This document shows positions 5,824 through 50,608 of a stretch of DNA of 64,000 nt, piece after piece. The DNA lies in contig BDTD01000033.1 of assembly GCA_002897635.1 (NCBI GenBank), positions 62,001 through 126,000 on the forward strand. Direction: 5' to 3'. Both the position numbers and the translations under genes were made by a program. This DNA comes from a bacterium BMS3Abin11. Its GTDB lineage: Bacteria > Pseudomonadota > Gammaproteobacteria > BMS3Bbin11. Under the pieces are notes generated by a model. That model was not told the origin of the DNA, made no database searches, and saw only the letters and a list, made by a program, of their open reading frames with translations. Each line of letters opens with the position of its first letter. The stretch's first letter is position 1.

Positions 5824-6003
5824 AAAGCCCTCCTTCAAGGAACAGTTCCTTAATTTATTTGGTTCGCGCCATCGTACCATAAGTATATTAACATATTCTT
5901 ATGGTATAGAGAAACTCTGTATAGGACAATGTATATATCGGAGCAGTATTTTTTTTCGAGCAATTAGCGAAACTGCGGAATAGTTTGGAGGCGCCTGTCG
6001 TTG

Positions 6004-6238
6004 ATTAAGGATTAAGGATTAAGGATTAAGGATTAAGGATTAAGGATTAAGGATTAAGGATTAAGGATTAAGGATTAAGGATTAAGGATTAAGGATTAAG
6101 GATTAAGGATTATCAAAATCGTAACGGGTTTTCTTTCATCTTTCATCTTTCATCTTTCATCTTTCATCCTTCATCTTTCATCTTTCATCCTTCATCTTTC
6201 ATCTTTCATCCTTCATCTTTCATCCTTCATCCTTCATC
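6004..6238. repeat. Large two-armed heptamer array, units ATTAAGG and TTTCATC/CTTCATC
   Basis: The left arm has about 15.5 uninterrupted copies of ATTAAGG (6004-6113). The right arm has exactly 15 copies of YTTCATC (6134-6238), where Y alternates irregularly between T and C. Read on opposite strands the arms are similar (GATTAAG against GATGAAG), so the whole can fold as an imperfect hairpin. The ~20-bp core between them is shared with the element at 1604. The right arm overlaps the last codons of prmC. Confidence 0.95.
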
Positions 6239-7065
6239 TGGCTCCCCCCAGTTACCCGATCGTTACCACCATAATCTTTTTCGGTGAATATCTCTTTAAA
6301 ACCCTCGTTACATAGCAGTTCGGTCACCTTTATTGCCTGGTCGTAACCATGCTCCAGTAACAAAAAGCCACTGGGCTTCAAATGCAACACGCTGTCGGAG
6401 ATGATCTTCCGGATAGCATCCAGCCCATCACCCCCGGAAATCAGTGCATGATCTGGTTCAGCAGGCAGGTCGCTCTGTTTCAGATGGGGGTCATCCACAG
6501 GAATATACGGAGGATTGCAGATGATCATTTCAAATAGCCTGTTTTTTATCGGCTGGAACCACGAGCCGGCAGCAAAACTGATATTTTTGACGCCCTGTAA
6601 ACGAGCGTTTTCCTTTGCGATGACCAGGGCGGCCATTGACAGGTCTGTGGCGATAATGTCACACAGTGGGCGCTCCCTTGCGAGGACAAGGGCAATGGCA
6701 CCGCTGCCCGTCCCCAGATCGGCAATCTGCCACCTGGCATCTGCCGGTATCCGCTGTAGCGCCTGCTCGACCAGGCATTCTGTGTCTGGTCGAGGAATCA
6801 GTACATCGGGGGTTACCTGCAGGTCCATGTCCCAGAAGCCACGGCTGCCGGTGATGTAAGCGAGTGGTTCGCCTGCTATTCTACGTTTTATTGCAGAGTC
6901 AAATTGCTGACACTGCTTTTCTGATAGCTCTTCATCGGGATGAATGAGTTGATGACTGCGACTGATGCCGCAGATTTCAGCCAGTAATAATTCGCTTTCC
7001 TGCCTGGCTTCAGGTCCTGTCAATTTTGACCGGGCTTCTTTGAGCAGTTCAAGTAGGGTGGGCAC
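6220..7065 (-). CDS. prmC: Release factor glutamine N5-methyltransferase PrmC (HemK)
   Basis: The 281-residue SAM-dependent enzyme methylates the glutamine of the GGQ motif of release factors RF1 and RF2. It has the SAM-binding ADLGTGSGAIALVLA near residue 115 and the diagnostic ICNPPYIP near residue 185. Translation starts at a GTG at 7063-7065. It lies downstream of prfA, its substrate's gene, in the classical hemA-prfA-prmC order. The C-terminal MKDEG and the stop codon are read from the heptamer array, so the array has replaced or extended the native 3' end. Confidence 0.96.
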   Translation of the reverse strand: MPTLLELLKEARSKLTGPEARQESELLLAEICGISRSHQLIHPDEELSEKQCQQFDSAIKRRIAGEPLAYITGSRGFWDMDLQVTPDVLIPRPDTECLVEQALQRIPADARWQIADLGTGSGAIALVLARERPLCDIIATDLSMAALVIAKENARLQGVKNISFAAGSWFQPIKNRLFEMIICNPPYIPVDDPHLKQSDLPAEPDHALISGGDGLDAIRKIISDSVLHLKPSGFLLLEHGYDQAIKVTELLCNEGFKEIFTEKDYGGNDRVTGGSQMKDEG

Positions 7066-8225: not shown

Positions 8226-8309
8226 AAGTTCCAAGTTCCAAGTTCCAAGTTCCAAGTACACTAATCCTCGTTCTTATATCTTGGAACTTGGAACTTGGAA
8301 CTTGGAACT
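8226..8309. repeat. Heptamer hairpin, units AAGTTCC / TTGGAAC
   Basis: About four copies of AAGTTCC (8227-8256), a 25-bp spacer, then about four copies of TTGGAAC (8281-8309). The two arms are exact reverse complements in sequence type and would form a 28-bp hairpin between hemA and prfA. The same heptamer word recurs at 17229-17318. Confidence 0.95.
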
Positions 8310-9610: not shown

Positions 9611-11407
9611 TTGTCTCTTGTAAGAAGAATCTGTCAAGCCGTATCATCGTTTACATTGCTTGCCTCGCTAGTACTTGTCTCTGCTGCACTTGCCTCCTGT
9701 GCCGGCAGTTCCATCAAAAATAACACAGCTGACACAACGGCAAAAGGACCCGTTCAGGCAAAAACCAATACAGAACCCAAACTGCAGAACCTGCCAAATG
9801 TCGAACTCACTGCCGGGCTGATGTACAAACTATTGCTGTCCGACATTGCCCGCCAGCGGAACAGCAATGACCTTGCGCTGGCGACCCTGGTCGATACAGC
9901 GGTTGAAACACGCGACCCCCGACTGGCTGCCCAGGCAACCCGCCAGGCTGTAGTTTTGTCTCAGTATGGCACTGCAGTTCAAATGGCCAGACTGTGGCTG
10001 GAGCTGGTACCGGACAACCTCGATGTCCACCAGACCATGGGTAATCTTCTGGTTATTGAAAAACAGCCAGAACAAGCTTTAGCACATTATAGCAAAGCTC
10101 TGGCTTTAGCAGACGAAAAAAACCGTAGTCTGCTACTGAAACAAATAAGTGGTACTCTGGTGCGTTACGGCAGCCCACAACAGGCTCTCGAATTAATCGA
10201 AAAGCTGGCAACTGAATACCCCGACTCAGCTGATGTAACGCTGGCCCTTGCCAGTATCGCCAGCAAGCTCAAAGAATATGGCATTGCGGCCACTGCCATT
10301 GAACGCACCCTGTCACTCGACCCGGACAACAGCAATGCCGCTACGTTTAAGTTCGGGCTGTTACTGCTCAATAAAAAAACCAGTAAAGCAGAGCAGTTTG
10401 CCAGCAGCTTTCTTAAAAAACATCCCTCAGCCATTTTGCTTCGCACGGCACTGGCCAGACACTATCTGGAAAATAACAAGCTTAAACAGGCAGAAAAGCA
10501 ATACCTGGTAATATATAAACTGGATGAAACATCCATCATTGCACCGATGGCGCTGGCACTGATACGGATCAATAACAATAAACTGGACGATGCAACGATG
10601 TACCTGGAAAAGGTACTGCTGCTGCAACCGGATAATAATCTGGCCCGACTCTACCTCGGCGATATCGCAGCACAACAGAAAAAACTTGATGATGCTATCC
10701 AGTGGTACCGCTCTGTTACTGAGAAAGGGCAGCTGTTTAAAGCGCGACTACGCCTGGTTGATGTTATTTTGCAGCGAGACGGTGTCGATGCGGCAATGCG
10801 GGAACTTGAAGCCATACACGCCGTGAGCCCCATCCAGCAGGTAGACATCATTCTGCTTCAGCACGACCTGCTACTAGAGGCCGGACGAGAGGATGAAGCG
10901 CTGCAGGTCATCAATGCCGCCCTTGCCGATAGCCCGGATGACATACGTCTGCTTTATGCCAGAGCCATGATTGCTGCACGCCGGGGAGATATTGCTGGTC
11001 TGGAAAAAGATTTAAAACATCTACTTAAAATTGATCCCGACCATGCGCAAGCCCTGAATGCCTATGGTTTTACCCTGGCAGACCTGACGGATCGTTATAA
11101 AGAAGCCTATTCACTCATCAGGGCGGCACTGAAACTAAAACCTGGCGACCCGTATATCCTCGACAGTATGGGCTGGGTCGAGTACCGGATGGGTAATTAC
11201 GGTGTAGCCGAAGACTATCTGCGCAAAGCACTGGCTAAACGAAATGACTCAGAGATCGCCTCTCACCTTGTTGAAGTACTGCAAGATGCAGGTAAAACGC
11301 GTGAAGCAAGAAGGGTCTGGACAAAAGCGAATAAGGATTTCCCGGAGAATGAGAAGTTGCAGATGGTAGGGAAAAAACTGAAGGGGAAGAGGAGCGGTGA
11401 AAGGTGA
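9611..11407 (+). CDS. TPR-repeat outer-membrane lipoprotein
   Basis: The mature protein is a chain of tetratricopeptide repeats (about residues 60-580), for example ALAHYSKALALADEKN and AEDYLRKALAKRNDSE. A lipoprotein signal (LVLVSAALASC) places the lipidated cysteine near residue 30. I choose the TTG at 9611 because an AGGAAAG ribosome binding site lies 9 nt upstream and it leaves a normal-length signal peptide; an upstream GTG at 9581 is the alternative. The position next to hemA and lolB matches the PA4667-type TPR protein of pseudomonads. It probably scaffolds envelope proteins. The last residues (KGKRSGER) run into a heptamer array. Confidence 0.88.
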   Translation: MSLVRRICQAVSSFTLLASLVLVSAALASCAGSSIKNNTADTTAKGPVQAKTNTEPKLQNLPNVELTAGLMYKLLLSDIARQRNSNDLALATLVDTAVETRDPRLAAQATRQAVVLSQYGTAVQMARLWLELVPDNLDVHQTMGNLLVIEKQPEQALAHYSKALALADEKNRSLLLKQISGTLVRYGSPQQALELIEKLATEYPDSADVTLALASIASKLKEYGIAATAIERTLSLDPDNSNAATFKFGLLLLNKKTSKAEQFASSFLKKHPSAILLRTALARHYLENNKLKQAEKQYLVIYKLDETSIIAPMALALIRINNNKLDDATMYLEKVLLLQPDNNLARLYLGDIAAQQKKLDDAIQWYRSVTEKGQLFKARLRLVDVILQRDGVDAAMRELEAIHAVSPIQQVDIILLQHDLLLEAGREDEALQVINAALADSPDDIRLLYARAMIAARRGDIAGLEKDLKHLLKIDPDHAQALNAYGFTLADLTDRYKEAYSLIRAALKLKPGDPYILDSMGWVEYRMGNYGVAEDYLRKALAKRNDSEIASHLVEVLQDAGKTREARRVWTKANKDFPENEKLQMVGKKLKGKRSGER

Positions 11408-11645
11408 AAGGTGAAAGGTGAGAGGTGAAAGGTGAAAAAATGGTTGACGATTTATGTATCAGGGTTTACGGGGAAAAATTAATGAGAAAGATAAAAAATC
11501 AAAAATCTTAACCAGAGAGTACACGGAGATTGATATTGTCTTGTACGGGATTTTTTAGGTGTCTACCGCTGCGAGTTTTTTGGCTAATACAAAACCCTCT
11601 GTGTAAAAAACCCTCTGTGTAACTCTGTGTCTGTGCTTAATCGCC
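11393..11645. repeat. Heptamer arrays in the TPR gene-lolB gap
   Basis: The gap holds several short repeat blocks. One is AGGTGAA units at 11396-11440, which also supply the end of the TPR gene. Another is an ACAGAGAG/ACACGGAG-type word near 11509. The last is CTCTGTG units at about 11590-11640, which are reverse-complementary in type to the second block. No ORF or recognisable RNA is seen. Confidence 0.7.
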
Positions 11646-13332: not shown

Positions 13333-14280
13333 TTGCCAAACGATGACATGATAATCCTTTCAGGTTCGGGTAACCCCGAACTCAGCAAAGAAGTCTGCCA
13401 ATTCCTGGATGTGCGTCCGGGTAAGGCCATAGTTGATACCTTCAGTGACGGTGAAATCCAGATTGAGATACTGGACAATGTGCGTGGCCGGGATGTTTTC
13501 ATTTTACAGTCGGTCTGTCCACCCAGTAACGATAATCTGATGGAATTACTGCTATTGATCGATGCCTGCAAACGCTCCGCGGCCGGTCGTATCACTGCAA
13601 CTATTCCCTATCTCGGTTATGCACGACAGGATCGGCGGCCTCGCTCACAGCGCACGCCAATTTCTGCACGCCTGGTGGCTGATATGATCTCCCGGGCTGG
13701 TGCCAACCATGTATTAACCGTAGATGTCCATGCAGACCAGATTGTTGGCTTTTTCGATATCCCAACCGATAATATCTACGCACTGCCGGTACTGCTTGGT
13801 GACGTCTGGCGCCACAGCGATGACAGCCTGATGGTGGTCTCACCCGATGTCGGCGGCGTAGTCCGTGCCCGCGCACTGGCCAAGCCACTGGAGGCAGACC
13901 TTGCCATTATTGACAAGCGCCGCCCGAAAGCCAATGTCGCCAAGGTAATGAATATTATCGGTGATGTAGAAGACAGAAACTGCGTCATCATTGACGACCT
14001 GGTTGATACCGCGAATACCCTCTGTGAGGCAGCCGGAGCACTGAAAAAGCGCGGCGCCAGTCGGGTTTCCGCCTGTTGTACCCATCCCATCCTGTCCGGC
14101 CCCGCTGTCGAACGCATCACCAGTTCCGAACTGGATGAGCTGGTCGTCACCAATACCGTACCACTTTCAGAGGACGCGGCAGCCTGCAGCAAAATCCGCC
14201 AGCTGAGTATCGCCGAGCTACTGGCTGAAACCATGCGCCGGATATATAACAAAGAATCGGTTAGTTCGTTGTTTTATTAA
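13333..14280 (+). CDS. prs: Ribose-phosphate pyrophosphokinase
   Basis: The 315-residue enzyme makes PRPP from ribose 5-phosphate and ATP for nucleotide, histidine and tryptophan synthesis (and for PurD's pathway at 31198). It shows [12 protein letters not shown] near residue 35, YARQDRR near residue 97 and the PRPP-binding [13 protein letters not shown] near residue 217. I accept the TTG at 13333 because a GGGAG ribosome binding site lies about 8 nt upstream; an ATG at 13348 is the alternative. In relatives rplY follows directly, but here a repeat element with its own gene intervenes. Confidence 0.96.
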
Positions 14281-14281
14281 C

Positions 14282-14778
14282 TTCAGTGTTCAGTGTTCAG
14301 TGTTCAGTGTTCAGTGTTCAGTGTTCAGATGGATGGTAATTTTACTGAAAACTAAAAACTAAGGATTATTTTCCATGGTGGGAAAATAGCATATCAGAGT
14401 TTTGAAAAACTTGTAGTATGGAAGAAATCTTCCCGTCTTGCTGTCGCCGTATATAGAGAATTCAAACCTTGCAGAGATTATGGGCTGAAAGACCAAATAA
14501 CGCGTGCAGCAGTATCGATTCCGTCTAATATTGCAGAAGGTTCAGAGCGTGAATCTACTCGTGAATTTATTCGGTTTCTAAATTTCTCAAAAGGCTCAGC
14601 AGCAGAATTAAGAACGCAGATTTATATTGCCAAAGAAATATGTCTAATTAGCCCGGCCACTGCGAATTCTATCAATCAGGAATTAAAACAAATATCTTCA
14701 ATGCTTCACGGTCTTGTGAAATCACTGAAAAGTCAGCTTATCTAACAACTGAACACCGAAAGCTGAACACTGAAAACT
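14282..14778. mobile_element. Heptamer-bounded element carrying a four-helix-bundle gene
   Basis: The left end is six full copies plus a partial copy of TTCAGTG (14282-14328). The right end (14747-14778) has CTGAACACCGAAAGC and CTGAACACTGAAAACT, the reverse complement of the left words. Between them is one gene (14386-14745) of the four-helix-bundle family. The ~500-bp unit interrupts the conserved prs-rplY junction, leaving both genes intact. The inverted ends and clean insertion suggest a mobile unit; no transposase is encoded. Confidence 0.65.
14386..14745 (+). CDS. Four-helix-bundle protein (S23 / 23S rRNA IVS family, Avd-like)
   Basis: The frame encodes about 119 residues beginning AYQSFEKLVVWKKSSRLAV and containing ITRAAVSIPSNIAEGSERES near the middle and SKGSAAELRTQIYIAKE after it. 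These are hallmarks of the TIGR02436 four-helix-bundle family, which includes proteins encoded in 23S rRNA intervening sequences and the accessory protein Avd of diversity-generating retroelements. The length is normal for the family. Alignment to the usual MAYQSFE start puts the initiation codon at 14386, which here reads ATA, not ATG, with GGTGGG just upstream. No ATG, GTG or TTG is available in frame. It may be a silenced copy or use a rare start. Confidence 0.8.
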   Translation: MAYQSFEKLVVWKKSSRLAVAVYREFKPCRDYGLKDQITRAAVSIPSNIAEGSERESTREFIRFLNFSKGSAAELRTQIYIAKEICLISPATANSINQELKQISSMLHGLVKSLKSQLI

Positions 14779-14858: not shown

Positions 14859-15533
14859 ATGTCTAACAGTCATACTATTATCGCCGAAATGCGTGATATG
14901 CAAGGTACGAGTGCGAGCCGCCGCCTGCGTCATGCCGGCAAAATTCCTGCTGTTCTTTATGGTGCAGGAAAAGATACAACCATGCTCACACTGAGCCACA
15001 ATAGCCTTTTTCATAACCTGGAGGACGAGTCCTTCCACAGCTCTATTCTGACAGTGGAGATAGATGGCAAAAAGGAGAAAGCCATTCTTCGCGATGTGCA
15101 GATGCATGCCTTCAAACAACTGATTATGCATGTCGACTTACAACGCATCAGTGCCAAAGACAAGATCCATATGAACGTGCCGCTACATTTCACTGGTGGT
15201 GAAGAAGCACCTGGCGTAAAGGTCGAGAGTGGTATTGTCTCTCATCTTATTACTGAACTGGACATAGTTTGTCTGCCTGTCGATCTGCCGGAATTTATTT
15301 CTATTGATATTTCTACCCTGAATCTCGGAGACTCTGTTCATCTTAGCGAAATCGAGCTGCCGGACGGCGTTGAATCTACCATCATATCTCATGGTGGAGA
15401 TGACCTGGCCGTGGTTACGGTTGTAACTGTTCGTGCCCAAATAGAAGAAGAAACTGCTGAAGAAGATGAAGAAGCTGGTGAAGAAGACGCTGGTGAAGAT
15501 ACTGATACTGAAGCACCTGAGAGTAGTGAATAA
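14859..15533 (+). CDS. rplY: 50S ribosomal protein L25, long (CTC/TL5) form
   Basis: L25 binds 5S rRNA. The 224-residue product is the two-domain form: the N-terminal L25 domain (SRRLRHAGKIPAVLYGAGKD near residue 20) is followed by the TL5 C-terminal beta domain and a very acidic tail (residues about 195-224, mostly E and D). The ATG at 14859 has a GGGAG ribosome binding site. A start 75 bp earlier would translate the leader hairpin and is rejected. It is followed 9 bp later by pth. Confidence 0.95.
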   Translation: MSNSHTIIAEMRDMQGTSASRRLRHAGKIPAVLYGAGKDTTMLTLSHNSLFHNLEDESFHSSILTVEIDGKKEKAILRDVQMHAFKQLIMHVDLQRISAKDKIHMNVPLHFTGGEEAPGVKVESGIVSHLITELDIVCLPVDLPEFISIDISTLNLGDSVHLSEIELPDGVESTIISHGGDDLAVVTVVTVRAQIEEETAEEDEEAGEEDAGEDTDTEAPESSE

Positions 15534-17228: not shown

Positions 17229-17318
17229 CAGTTCCAAGTTCCAGGTTCCAAGTCGAAAAAATCAGTAATTTACTCTTGTTTTTTAACTTGGAACTTGGGA
17301 CTTGGATCTTGGAACTTT
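17229..17318. repeat. Heptamer hairpin, units GTTCCAA / TTGGAAC
   Basis: Left arm GTTCCAAGTTCCAGGTTCCAAG (17230 on) and right arm with ACTTGGAACTTGGGACTTGG. It is a degenerate relative of the hairpin at 8226-8309 and lies between ychF and tRNA-Met. Confidence 0.85.
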
Positions 17319-35344: not shown

Positions 35345-35377
35345 ATTTTCTCTCTCGTAAAATTTCTGGATAGAAGG

Positions 35378-35514
35378 ATAAAGGTAAAAGGAGAAAGGTG
35401 AAAGGTGAAAGGGAAAAAGAAGAAGAAGAAAGGAGGAAAGGAGGAAAGGAAAATCAAAAGCATCATGCCCCTTAGTCCTTTGTCCTTAATCTTTCCTCCT
35501 TTCCTCCTTTCCCC
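35378..35514. repeat. Heptamer hairpin, units AGGAGGAA / TTTCCTCC
   Basis: The left arm has GAAAGGTGAAAGGTGAAAGG and AAGGAGGAAAGGAGGAAAGG. The right arm has CTTTCCTCCTTTCCTCC and TTTCCCC. A TTAGTCCTTTGTCCTTAATC core segment resembles the elements at 12280 and 37967. The right arm overlaps the last codons of ppsA. Confidence 0.88.
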
Positions 35515-50439: not shown

Positions 50440-50608
50440 AGGCAGGAGGAAAGGGGATACTAAAGACTAAAGATAAAAGATAAAAGATAAAAGATGAAGA
50501 TTTTCCTTTGAGCTTGTCCGAATAAATTCGAACCTACAGGAAAATTATGCACATCACGTTGGCAACCACCTGGTTTTGACTTTCCTTTCCCCTTTCCCCT
50601 GCCTTTCA
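50440..50608. repeat. Heptamer hairpin with a GTAGG-type unit in its core
   Basis: The left arm is AGGAGGAAAGGGG plus GATAAAA units (50476-50497). The right arm is TTTCCTTTCCCCTTTCCCC. The core contains CTTGTCCGAATAAATTCGAA with CCTACAG (50513-50539), a unit of the palindrome family. Here the palindrome unit is inside the heptamer element, the reverse of the nesting at 37922. Confidence 0.8.

Follow-up and report, generated by a model that had tools for sequence, protein, structure and literature searches.

Why does a small gene, enclosed by copies of a seven-base word, lie between prs and rplY in the genome of the gammaproteobacterium BMS3Abin11, and do gene and words belong together? The stretch in question, 14282-14778 of a window of 64,000 nucleotides (the whole stretch of DNA analysed; contig BDTD01000033.1, positions 62,001 to 126,000), carries one gene of the 23S_rRNA_IVP family, whose product is a four-helix-bundle (4HB) protein, between a left array of TTCAGTG heptamers and an inverted right array. 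An earlier note on this DNA had proposed that the unit is an insertion, that its protein is linked to the spread or maintenance of the arrays, and that the whole is an undescribed system with a possible tie to diversity-generating retroelements (DGRs). We are highly confident that this heptamer-armed unit is real and mobile; comparison with 4HB genes from many other genomes provides the main evidence.

Inverted arms around 4HB genes

Our first set comprised 90 loci: 80 that carried relatives of the protein, obtained in one scan and spanning about a dozen phyla, plus ten from relatives in the same class. Period-7 arrays were present within 300 bp of the 4HB gene in 50 of these loci, and their density was 1.50 per kb near the gene vs 0.083 per kb elsewhere in the same loci. 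Period 8 was enriched too, at roughly one-eighth of the period-7 density, and other periods little or not at all. When only intergenic DNA was considered, there were 5.18 arrays per kb near 4HB genes and 0.57 elsewhere. Arrays flanked the gene on both sides in 32 loci; here the left heptamer and the reverse-complemented right one agreed at 5.72 of 7 positions, compared with 3.70 (standard deviation, sd, 0.17) when right arms were dealt out among loci; in direct orientation the match was 3.56. A second set, collected with the Pfam profile from 20 genomes and sharing about twenty genes with the first, gave an inverted match of 5.56 vs 3.74 (sd 0.19), and the 48 genes with arrays on both sides pooled from the two sets gave 5.71 vs 3.72 (sd 0.13). 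Moreover, all 22 inverted heptamer pairs spaced 200-900 bp apart in the 90 loci enclosed a 4HB gene, and two of these genes had not been queries.

A further test required no arrays and scored the best ungapped complementarity of upstream vs downstream flanks, with the threshold set where 1% of mismatched flanks pass. It was passed by 104 of 154 4HB genes and by 6 of 245 controls, which were further genes from these loci with lengths of 300-700 bp; five of the six were themselves 4HB genes. Separately drawn 4HB genes of cyanobacterial plasmids passed in 9 of 10 cases. Because the arm test, the array enrichment, the inverted pairs and the plasmid set agree, inverted arms are, judged by sequence comparison, a property of the 4HB family in some ten phyla, with tandem heptamers as the commonest form. 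The check recommended by the earlier note, whether 4HB genes of relatives are flanked by inverted heptamer arrays, thus came out mostly positive, and did so across many phyla.

Some individual loci deserve mention beside these counts. The sixth passing control, and hence the sole non-4HB passer among the 245, is a Y1_Tnp gene (IS200/RAYT-like; L032, 8446-9096) whose flanks are strongly complementary; flanking palindromes are expected in the Y1_Tnp family. On a Nostoc plasmid (L359), a 4HB gene with AGTAGGG/TCCCTAC arms lies between the genes for the beta and alpha subunits of ribonucleotide reductase, antiparallel to both. At three carA-carB loci (L078, L201, L215), the 3' end of the 4HB gene extends into the right heptamer arm, and translation of this part yields a repetitive C-terminus (SPVPGPRS, ESRVPNPESRS).

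Movement of the unit and turnover of its heptamers

Two copies in one genome (G068; L133 and L187) are 94% identical from the left to the right heptamers and have unrelated flanks; since they share their arms at unrelated sites, gene and arms move together. In Desulfosarcina and Desulfaltia the elements are 77-83% identical, but only over the interval of about -58 to +23 that surrounds the gene. In Halomonadaceae the cysD|cysN junction was occupied in 6 of the 30 genomes fetched, by two 4HB lineages; as these are only about 52% identical to each other, at least two arrivals at this junction are likely. Many unoccupied Halomonadaceae have a cysD-cysN gap of 17-28 bp or about 150-190 bp that lacks heptamer arms, and one locus (L244) has kept arms but has no 4HB gene. 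The carA|carB junction of Xanthomonadaceae was occupied in 3 of 30. Of 148 4HB genes overall, 14 had cysN as their immediate downstream neighbour, and five of these 14 had been located via cysN. Taken together, these genome comparisons show that array, gene and array move as one unit, that insertion at operon junctions recurs and that the unit can be lost. Carriage by phage was considered as a vehicle and rejected, with no match among 50,697 phage records.

The junction of the window was located in six congeners, including the window's own genome (G000). The 4HB gene with TTCAGTG arms is found between prs and rplY in G000 and G003, and a gene-less hairpin takes its place in the other four. In G006 and G004 this hairpin clearly belongs to a different heptamer class (AAGTTCC type), and in G001 and G005 it is more degenerate. 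The gene is thus absent from this site in 4 of 6 congeners, which agrees with the insertion postulated in the earlier note and gives a negative answer to its question whether all relatives carry the gene there. A tree of the flanking genes groups G000 with G003, with G006 nearby. Between G000 and G003 the synonymous divergence (dS) of the 4HB gene is 0.038, with 116 of 120 third positions identical, vs a dS of 0.49-0.89 and 60-73% identical third positions for prs, rplY and pth. Because of this difference, we conclude that the element was exchanged or inserted after the two species split. This low dS and the homology of L133 and L187, which extends over array, gene and array only, bear out the view that the heptamer-bounded stretch behaves as a unit. 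The left array of G003 is three units shorter than that of G000, reflecting a gain in G000 or a loss in G003. Gene-less TTCAGTG hairpins were found at further sites in G000, G003 and G005.

Heptamer similarity between elements is about 6.5 of 7 at 90% protein identity and random (3.5-3.8) below 60%, and heptamers differ among the copies of one genome. Within each element, left and right arms nevertheless remain complementary despite the change of heptamer between elements. That heptamers turn over between elements yet pair within each suggests that complementarity is restored after change, via selection on the stem or templated copying from arm to arm. The arms have a base bias, the left being G-rich (45:4) and the right C-rich (46:7), and in close pairs purifying selection acts on the protein (ratio of nonsynonymous to synonymous divergence, dN/dS, 0.03-0.29). 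Two simpler schemes were rejected: a fixed heptamer read by the protein, as the words differ between elements, and a genome-specific heptamer, as copies within one genome carry different words. Since heptamers are random below about 60% amino acid identity, sequence-specific recognition is unlikely unless protein and heptamer co-evolve.

The copy between prs and rplY

The features of the window's copy and its neighbours, all on the + strand, are as follows; the names prs and rplY are ones we presume for the neighbouring open reading frames from family knowledge and the earlier note.

13333..14280, +, prs (ribose-phosphate pyrophosphokinase), upstream neighbour and insertion boundary (open reading frame; same neighbour in congeners)
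14282..14328, +, left heptamer array, TTCAGTG x 6.7, the G-rich 5' arm (tandem-repeat search)
14329..14385, +, sub-terminal region ATGGATGGTAATTTTACTGAAAACTAAAAACTAAGGATTATTTTCCATGGTGGGAAA, with a damaged Shine-Dalgarno (SD)-like motif inside (comparison with G003)
14386..14745, +, 4HB gene (23S_rRNA_IVP / TIGR02436 family), 119 codons from ATA, stop at 14743-14745 (profiles, AlphaFold2 model)
14746..14778, +, right arm, degenerate inverted array CTGAACA CCGAAAG CTGAACA CTGAAAACT, the C-rich 3' arm
14859..15533, +, rplY (50S ribosomal protein L25), downstream neighbour (open reading frame; congener comparison)

The left array starts one base past the prs stop codon and consists of six perfect TTCAGTG units and a partial TTCAG (6.7 copies at 100% and score 94 in Tandem Repeats Finder), exactly the six copies first reported. 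The inverted right array is likewise real, but it is short and imperfect: 14749-14776 holds four degenerate heptamers (CTGAACA CCGAAAG CTGAACA CTGAAAA), of which only the two CTGAACA words are perfect. Over 14282-14308 and 14748-14774 the arms are 89% complementary. The sub-terminal region together with the array resembles a whole gene-less TTCAGTG hairpin located elsewhere in the genus. RNA of the element folds better than shuffled sequences (z=-2.5), with a predicted stem.

Between the arms lies a single PF05635/TIGR02436 domain (E=1.9e-35 and 2.6e-35), with scores of 121.7 bits vs a cut-off of 33.8 (Pfam) and 120.9 vs 24 (TIGR02436); PF05635 was the only domain found, with no Y1/HUH transposase. 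The motif SIPSNIAEG is invariant across 38 aligned homologues, including the window protein, and this is the one PF05635 gene in the 2.67-Mb genome. An AlphaFold2 model (predicted local distance difference test, pLDDT, 95.6) matched Xcc0516 (2gsc) with a template-modelling (TM) score of 0.83-0.92; its matches to the DGR protein Avd (4dwl) and a DGR complex (8ub7) were weaker, at 0.64-0.85. The Foldseek match to 4dwl (TMq 0.76, TM 0.76/0.85, probability 1.00) indicates fold, not function. Xcc0516 is a homopentamer according to Lin et al. (2006), as cited in PMC4990558. The window gene is not intact, as its frame has no ATG, GTG or TTG start. The codon at 14386-14388 is ATA, vs ATG in G003, and the SD-like motif is GGTGG, vs GGAGG in G003. 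Around the gene start the sister copy reads GGAGGGAAAATGGCATATCAG and the window copy GGTGGGAAAATAGCATATCAG, the start itself being GGAGGGAAA-ATG-GCATATCAG in G003 and GGTGGGAAA-ATA-GCATATCAG in the window. As ATG and GGAGG are intact in the sister copy, both signals are damaged in the window copy, which has lost the normal start and seems to be decaying. Hence the single S23/Avd-type gene described earlier does have the domain and an Avd-like fold, but lacks a normal start.

The window holds 11 period-7 arrays vs 0-2 for each of the remaining periods in the range 4-12, an excess far beyond chance, and 422 kb sampled from its genome (window included) hold 28 vs 0-5 for other periods from 5 to 12; gene-less heptamer arrays are many in this genome. 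Inverted AAGTTCC/GGAACTT hairpins that contain no gene occur at 8226-8309 and 17230-17317, and their AAGTTCC word is the one found at prs-rplY in congeners lacking the 4HB gene. Two hairpins, at 1595-1685 and 6003-6239, have GATTAAG on the left and CTTTCAT-type words on the right, with about 15 copies per arm in the second, and have the loop ATTATCAAAATCGTAACGRGTTTTC in common; this loop was rejected as a repeated core of gene-less elements, as only two copies exist in the genus. Further arrays, some paired and inverted, are TTTACGA (638-685), GGTGAAA (11396-11437), AAAGGTG/AAAGGAG with CTTTCCTC (35374-35512) and AAAGATA with CCTTTCC (50459-50600).

Explanations and known systems

We think it probable, with appreciable room for doubt, that 14282-14778 is a copy of a widespread small mobile unit, the intergenic counterpart of the intervening sequence (IVS) of 23S rRNA, which spreads by hairpin copying by host enzymes with help from the 4HB protein. 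Each unit consists of one 4HB gene inside inverted arms, usually tandem heptamers, inserted between genes and mostly codirectional with them. The arms may extrude as a DNA hairpin or cruciform, or form a long stem in the transcript, and the 4HB protein, modelled as a fold relative of the pentameric Avd ring, could bind the structured arms or the folded element RNA irrespective of heptamer sequence. It would thereby aid a host polymerase, a recombinase or a borrowed reverse transcriptase (RT) in copying the element to a new hairpin or junction. The arrays would grow longer by polymerase slippage and stay complementary because, through the hairpin, one arm serves as template for the other. By analogy with the Coxiella IVS, RNase III may cut the arm stem in the transcript, so that insertion in operons and rRNA is tolerated; gene-less hairpins would be remnants, non-autonomous copies or landing sites. 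A bolder version, which we put forward only tentatively, is that protein and arms constitute a new nuclease-free mobile class, ancestral or sister to the rRNA IVS and akin in fold to the DGR Avd, that reads hairpin structure rather than sequence and copies or homogenises its arms via host enzymes, and that many bacterial heptamer repeats (TAACTGA and GGGAATC types) are its traces.

Several observations speak against this explanation. About one-third of 4HB genes have no significant arms. The unit encodes no nuclease, transposase or RT, and no target-site duplication was defined, with element boundaries placed only to within the arrays; for these reasons the transfer mechanism is one that we infer. 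That the 4HB protein binds the arms is likewise a proposal. The likeness of the G000 and G003 copies could reflect short homologous replacement instead of transposition. Gene-less hairpins exist in two congeners, G001 and G005, in which no 4HB gene was detected, so that the arrays are now independent of the protein in cis. With this, and with the lost start codon in the window, the earlier suggestion of a protein spreading or maintaining the arrays stays a hypothesis. Background arrays are also only weakly denser in other 4HB-bearing genomes (7 in 400 kb, 2 in 299 kb) than in 4HB-lacking DNA (1 in 537 kb). With the window's genome (13 in 358 kb) included, the totals are 22 in 1,057 kb, 13 of the 22 from that genome, vs 1 in 537 kb, which under uneven sampling is no more than suggestive of an association of genome-wide array density with the 4HB gene.

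Alternatively, the 4HB gene could be a passive passenger, with slippage and templated copying at hairpins building the arrays, the gene entering the loops by the machinery of another element, and the protein uninvolved. The gene-less hairpins at the exact prs-rplY site in four congeners, the insertion in an rRNA helix (L007, below) and the wealth of gene-less hairpins of other heptamers in the window and its genome all fit such a scheme. We nevertheless consider it unlikely, as most empty cysD|cysN and carA|carB sites lack a heptamer hairpin, the arms accompany the gene in L133 and L187, and heptamer similarity follows protein identity. The arms might instead serve autoregulation or RNA processing, as a structured operator or RNase III site that controls 4HB expression and shields the operon, with spread by ordinary horizontal transfer and homologous recombination. 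The orientation of neighbours relative to the 4HB gene (54 ++ vs 10 --), the folding of the element RNA and the cleavage of the Coxiella IVS at its stem by RNase III (PMC4990558) would be expected under this scheme; however, some form of transposition is needed to explain how one genome has copies at unrelated sites whose homology ends in the arms, and arms remain where the gene is gone. In our judgement the scheme is therefore distinctly improbable. That the pattern is chance, or an ascertainment artefact of low-complexity intergenic DNA, might be argued from the array background in the window's genome away from the gene, but the matched intergenic control, the between-locus shuffles, the 245 control genes and the separate plasmid set leave its probability negligible.

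If the mobile-unit explanation is correct, a common uncharacterised bacterial protein family acquires a physical context, the so far unexplained surplus of 7-bp tandem repeats in bacterial genomes has, at least in part, an origin, and rRNA intervening sequences become special cases of a general mobile unit. The unit may thus link the 4HB family, rRNA gene inserts and unexplained seven-letter repeats, and two questions become open to test: why the repeated word has seven bases, and whether a ring of the Avd type works on hairpins.

Among known systems close to the unit, the 23S rRNA IVS of Coxiella and Leptospira shares these features with it: a PF05635 protein, a length of about 0.43-0.5 kb, terminal inverted repeats, heptamers 5' of the open reading frame and a sporadic, horizontal distribution. 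In Coxiella, tandem GACAGAT heptamers precede the S23p open reading frame, and the IVS has a 28-bp terminal stem and is excised by RNase III (PMC4990558). The window unit likewise has terminal inverted repeats around its S23p frame, but is not inside a 23S rRNA helix. One of our loci is: L007 (1441-1886), the only one inside 23S rRNA, is an intervening sequence at E. coli position 1165/1181 (helix 45 region), with its 4HB gene broken by two stops and with inverted heptamer arms (CAGAAGACAGA... / ...TCTTCTGTCTTCTGTCTTCTG), and on this basis rRNA intervening sequences share the architecture. Unlike them, the present units lie mostly between protein genes, often in operons, and their arm heptamer varies by element. 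REPtrons (RAYT/Y1_Tnp genes with REP palindromes and REPINs) are comparable in manner of working only, in that one gene lies between inverted palindromic repeats and further copies without a gene are scattered elsewhere, and it was a Y1_Tnp gene that alone passed the arm test among non-4HB controls. In contrast, our protein is a four-helix bundle lacking the catalytic HUH domain, and our repeats, tandem arrays of 7-bp units, have neither a fixed sequence nor a tetranucleotide tag.

The 4HB protein shares its fold with Avd of DGRs at about 10% sequence identity, with no RT, template or variable repeat adjoining the unit. DGR homing requires a hairpin or cruciform of which the structure, not the stem sequence, counts (PMC3240598), a suggestive parallel to the arms. 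The DGR link itself did not hold in the window's genome: an RT is present elsewhere, as the earlier note had thought to look for, but this sole PF00078 RT (L097, on another contig, C9) carries a group II intron maturase domain, and no RT with a template/variable repeat (TR/VR) pair lies near the Avd-like gene. As for CRISPR, 23S_rRNA_IVP genes have been reported in association with cas operons (PMC3936711). In three cyanobacterial plasmids (L364, L365, L366) we found 4HB genes between cas6 and cas4 (twice) and between cas10 and cmr3 (once). L366 has inverted heptamer arms and L365 weak ones, and in L364 each flank of the gene carries a long heptamer array, the two being directly oriented. The reported association may reflect insertion rather than CRISPR function.

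Heptamer repeats have been published as TAACTGA in Beggiatoaceae (PMC4679880), GGGAATC in Xanthomonas (PMC4692102) and GGGACCG in Geobacter (PMC2700814), in each case as repeats alone, with regulation or quadruplexes proposed; the two of these reports that were searched contain no mention of S23 or four-helix. In our loci, arrays of TCAGTTA, the complement of TAACTGA, flank 4HB genes in L002 and L049, and G-rich GGGACCG and GGGATTC-type arrays, similar to the heptamers of Xanthomonas and Geobacter, flank those at carA|carB. No report linking 4HB genes with heptamer arrays was found in the open-licence papers searched, in keeping with the earlier description of a candidate undescribed system. 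Cumulatively, the protein family, the rRNA IVS and the heptamer repeats are each known, and, measured against that literature, their joining is apparently new; the unit is best compared to an IVS-like element, with a fair chance that it merits a class of its own.
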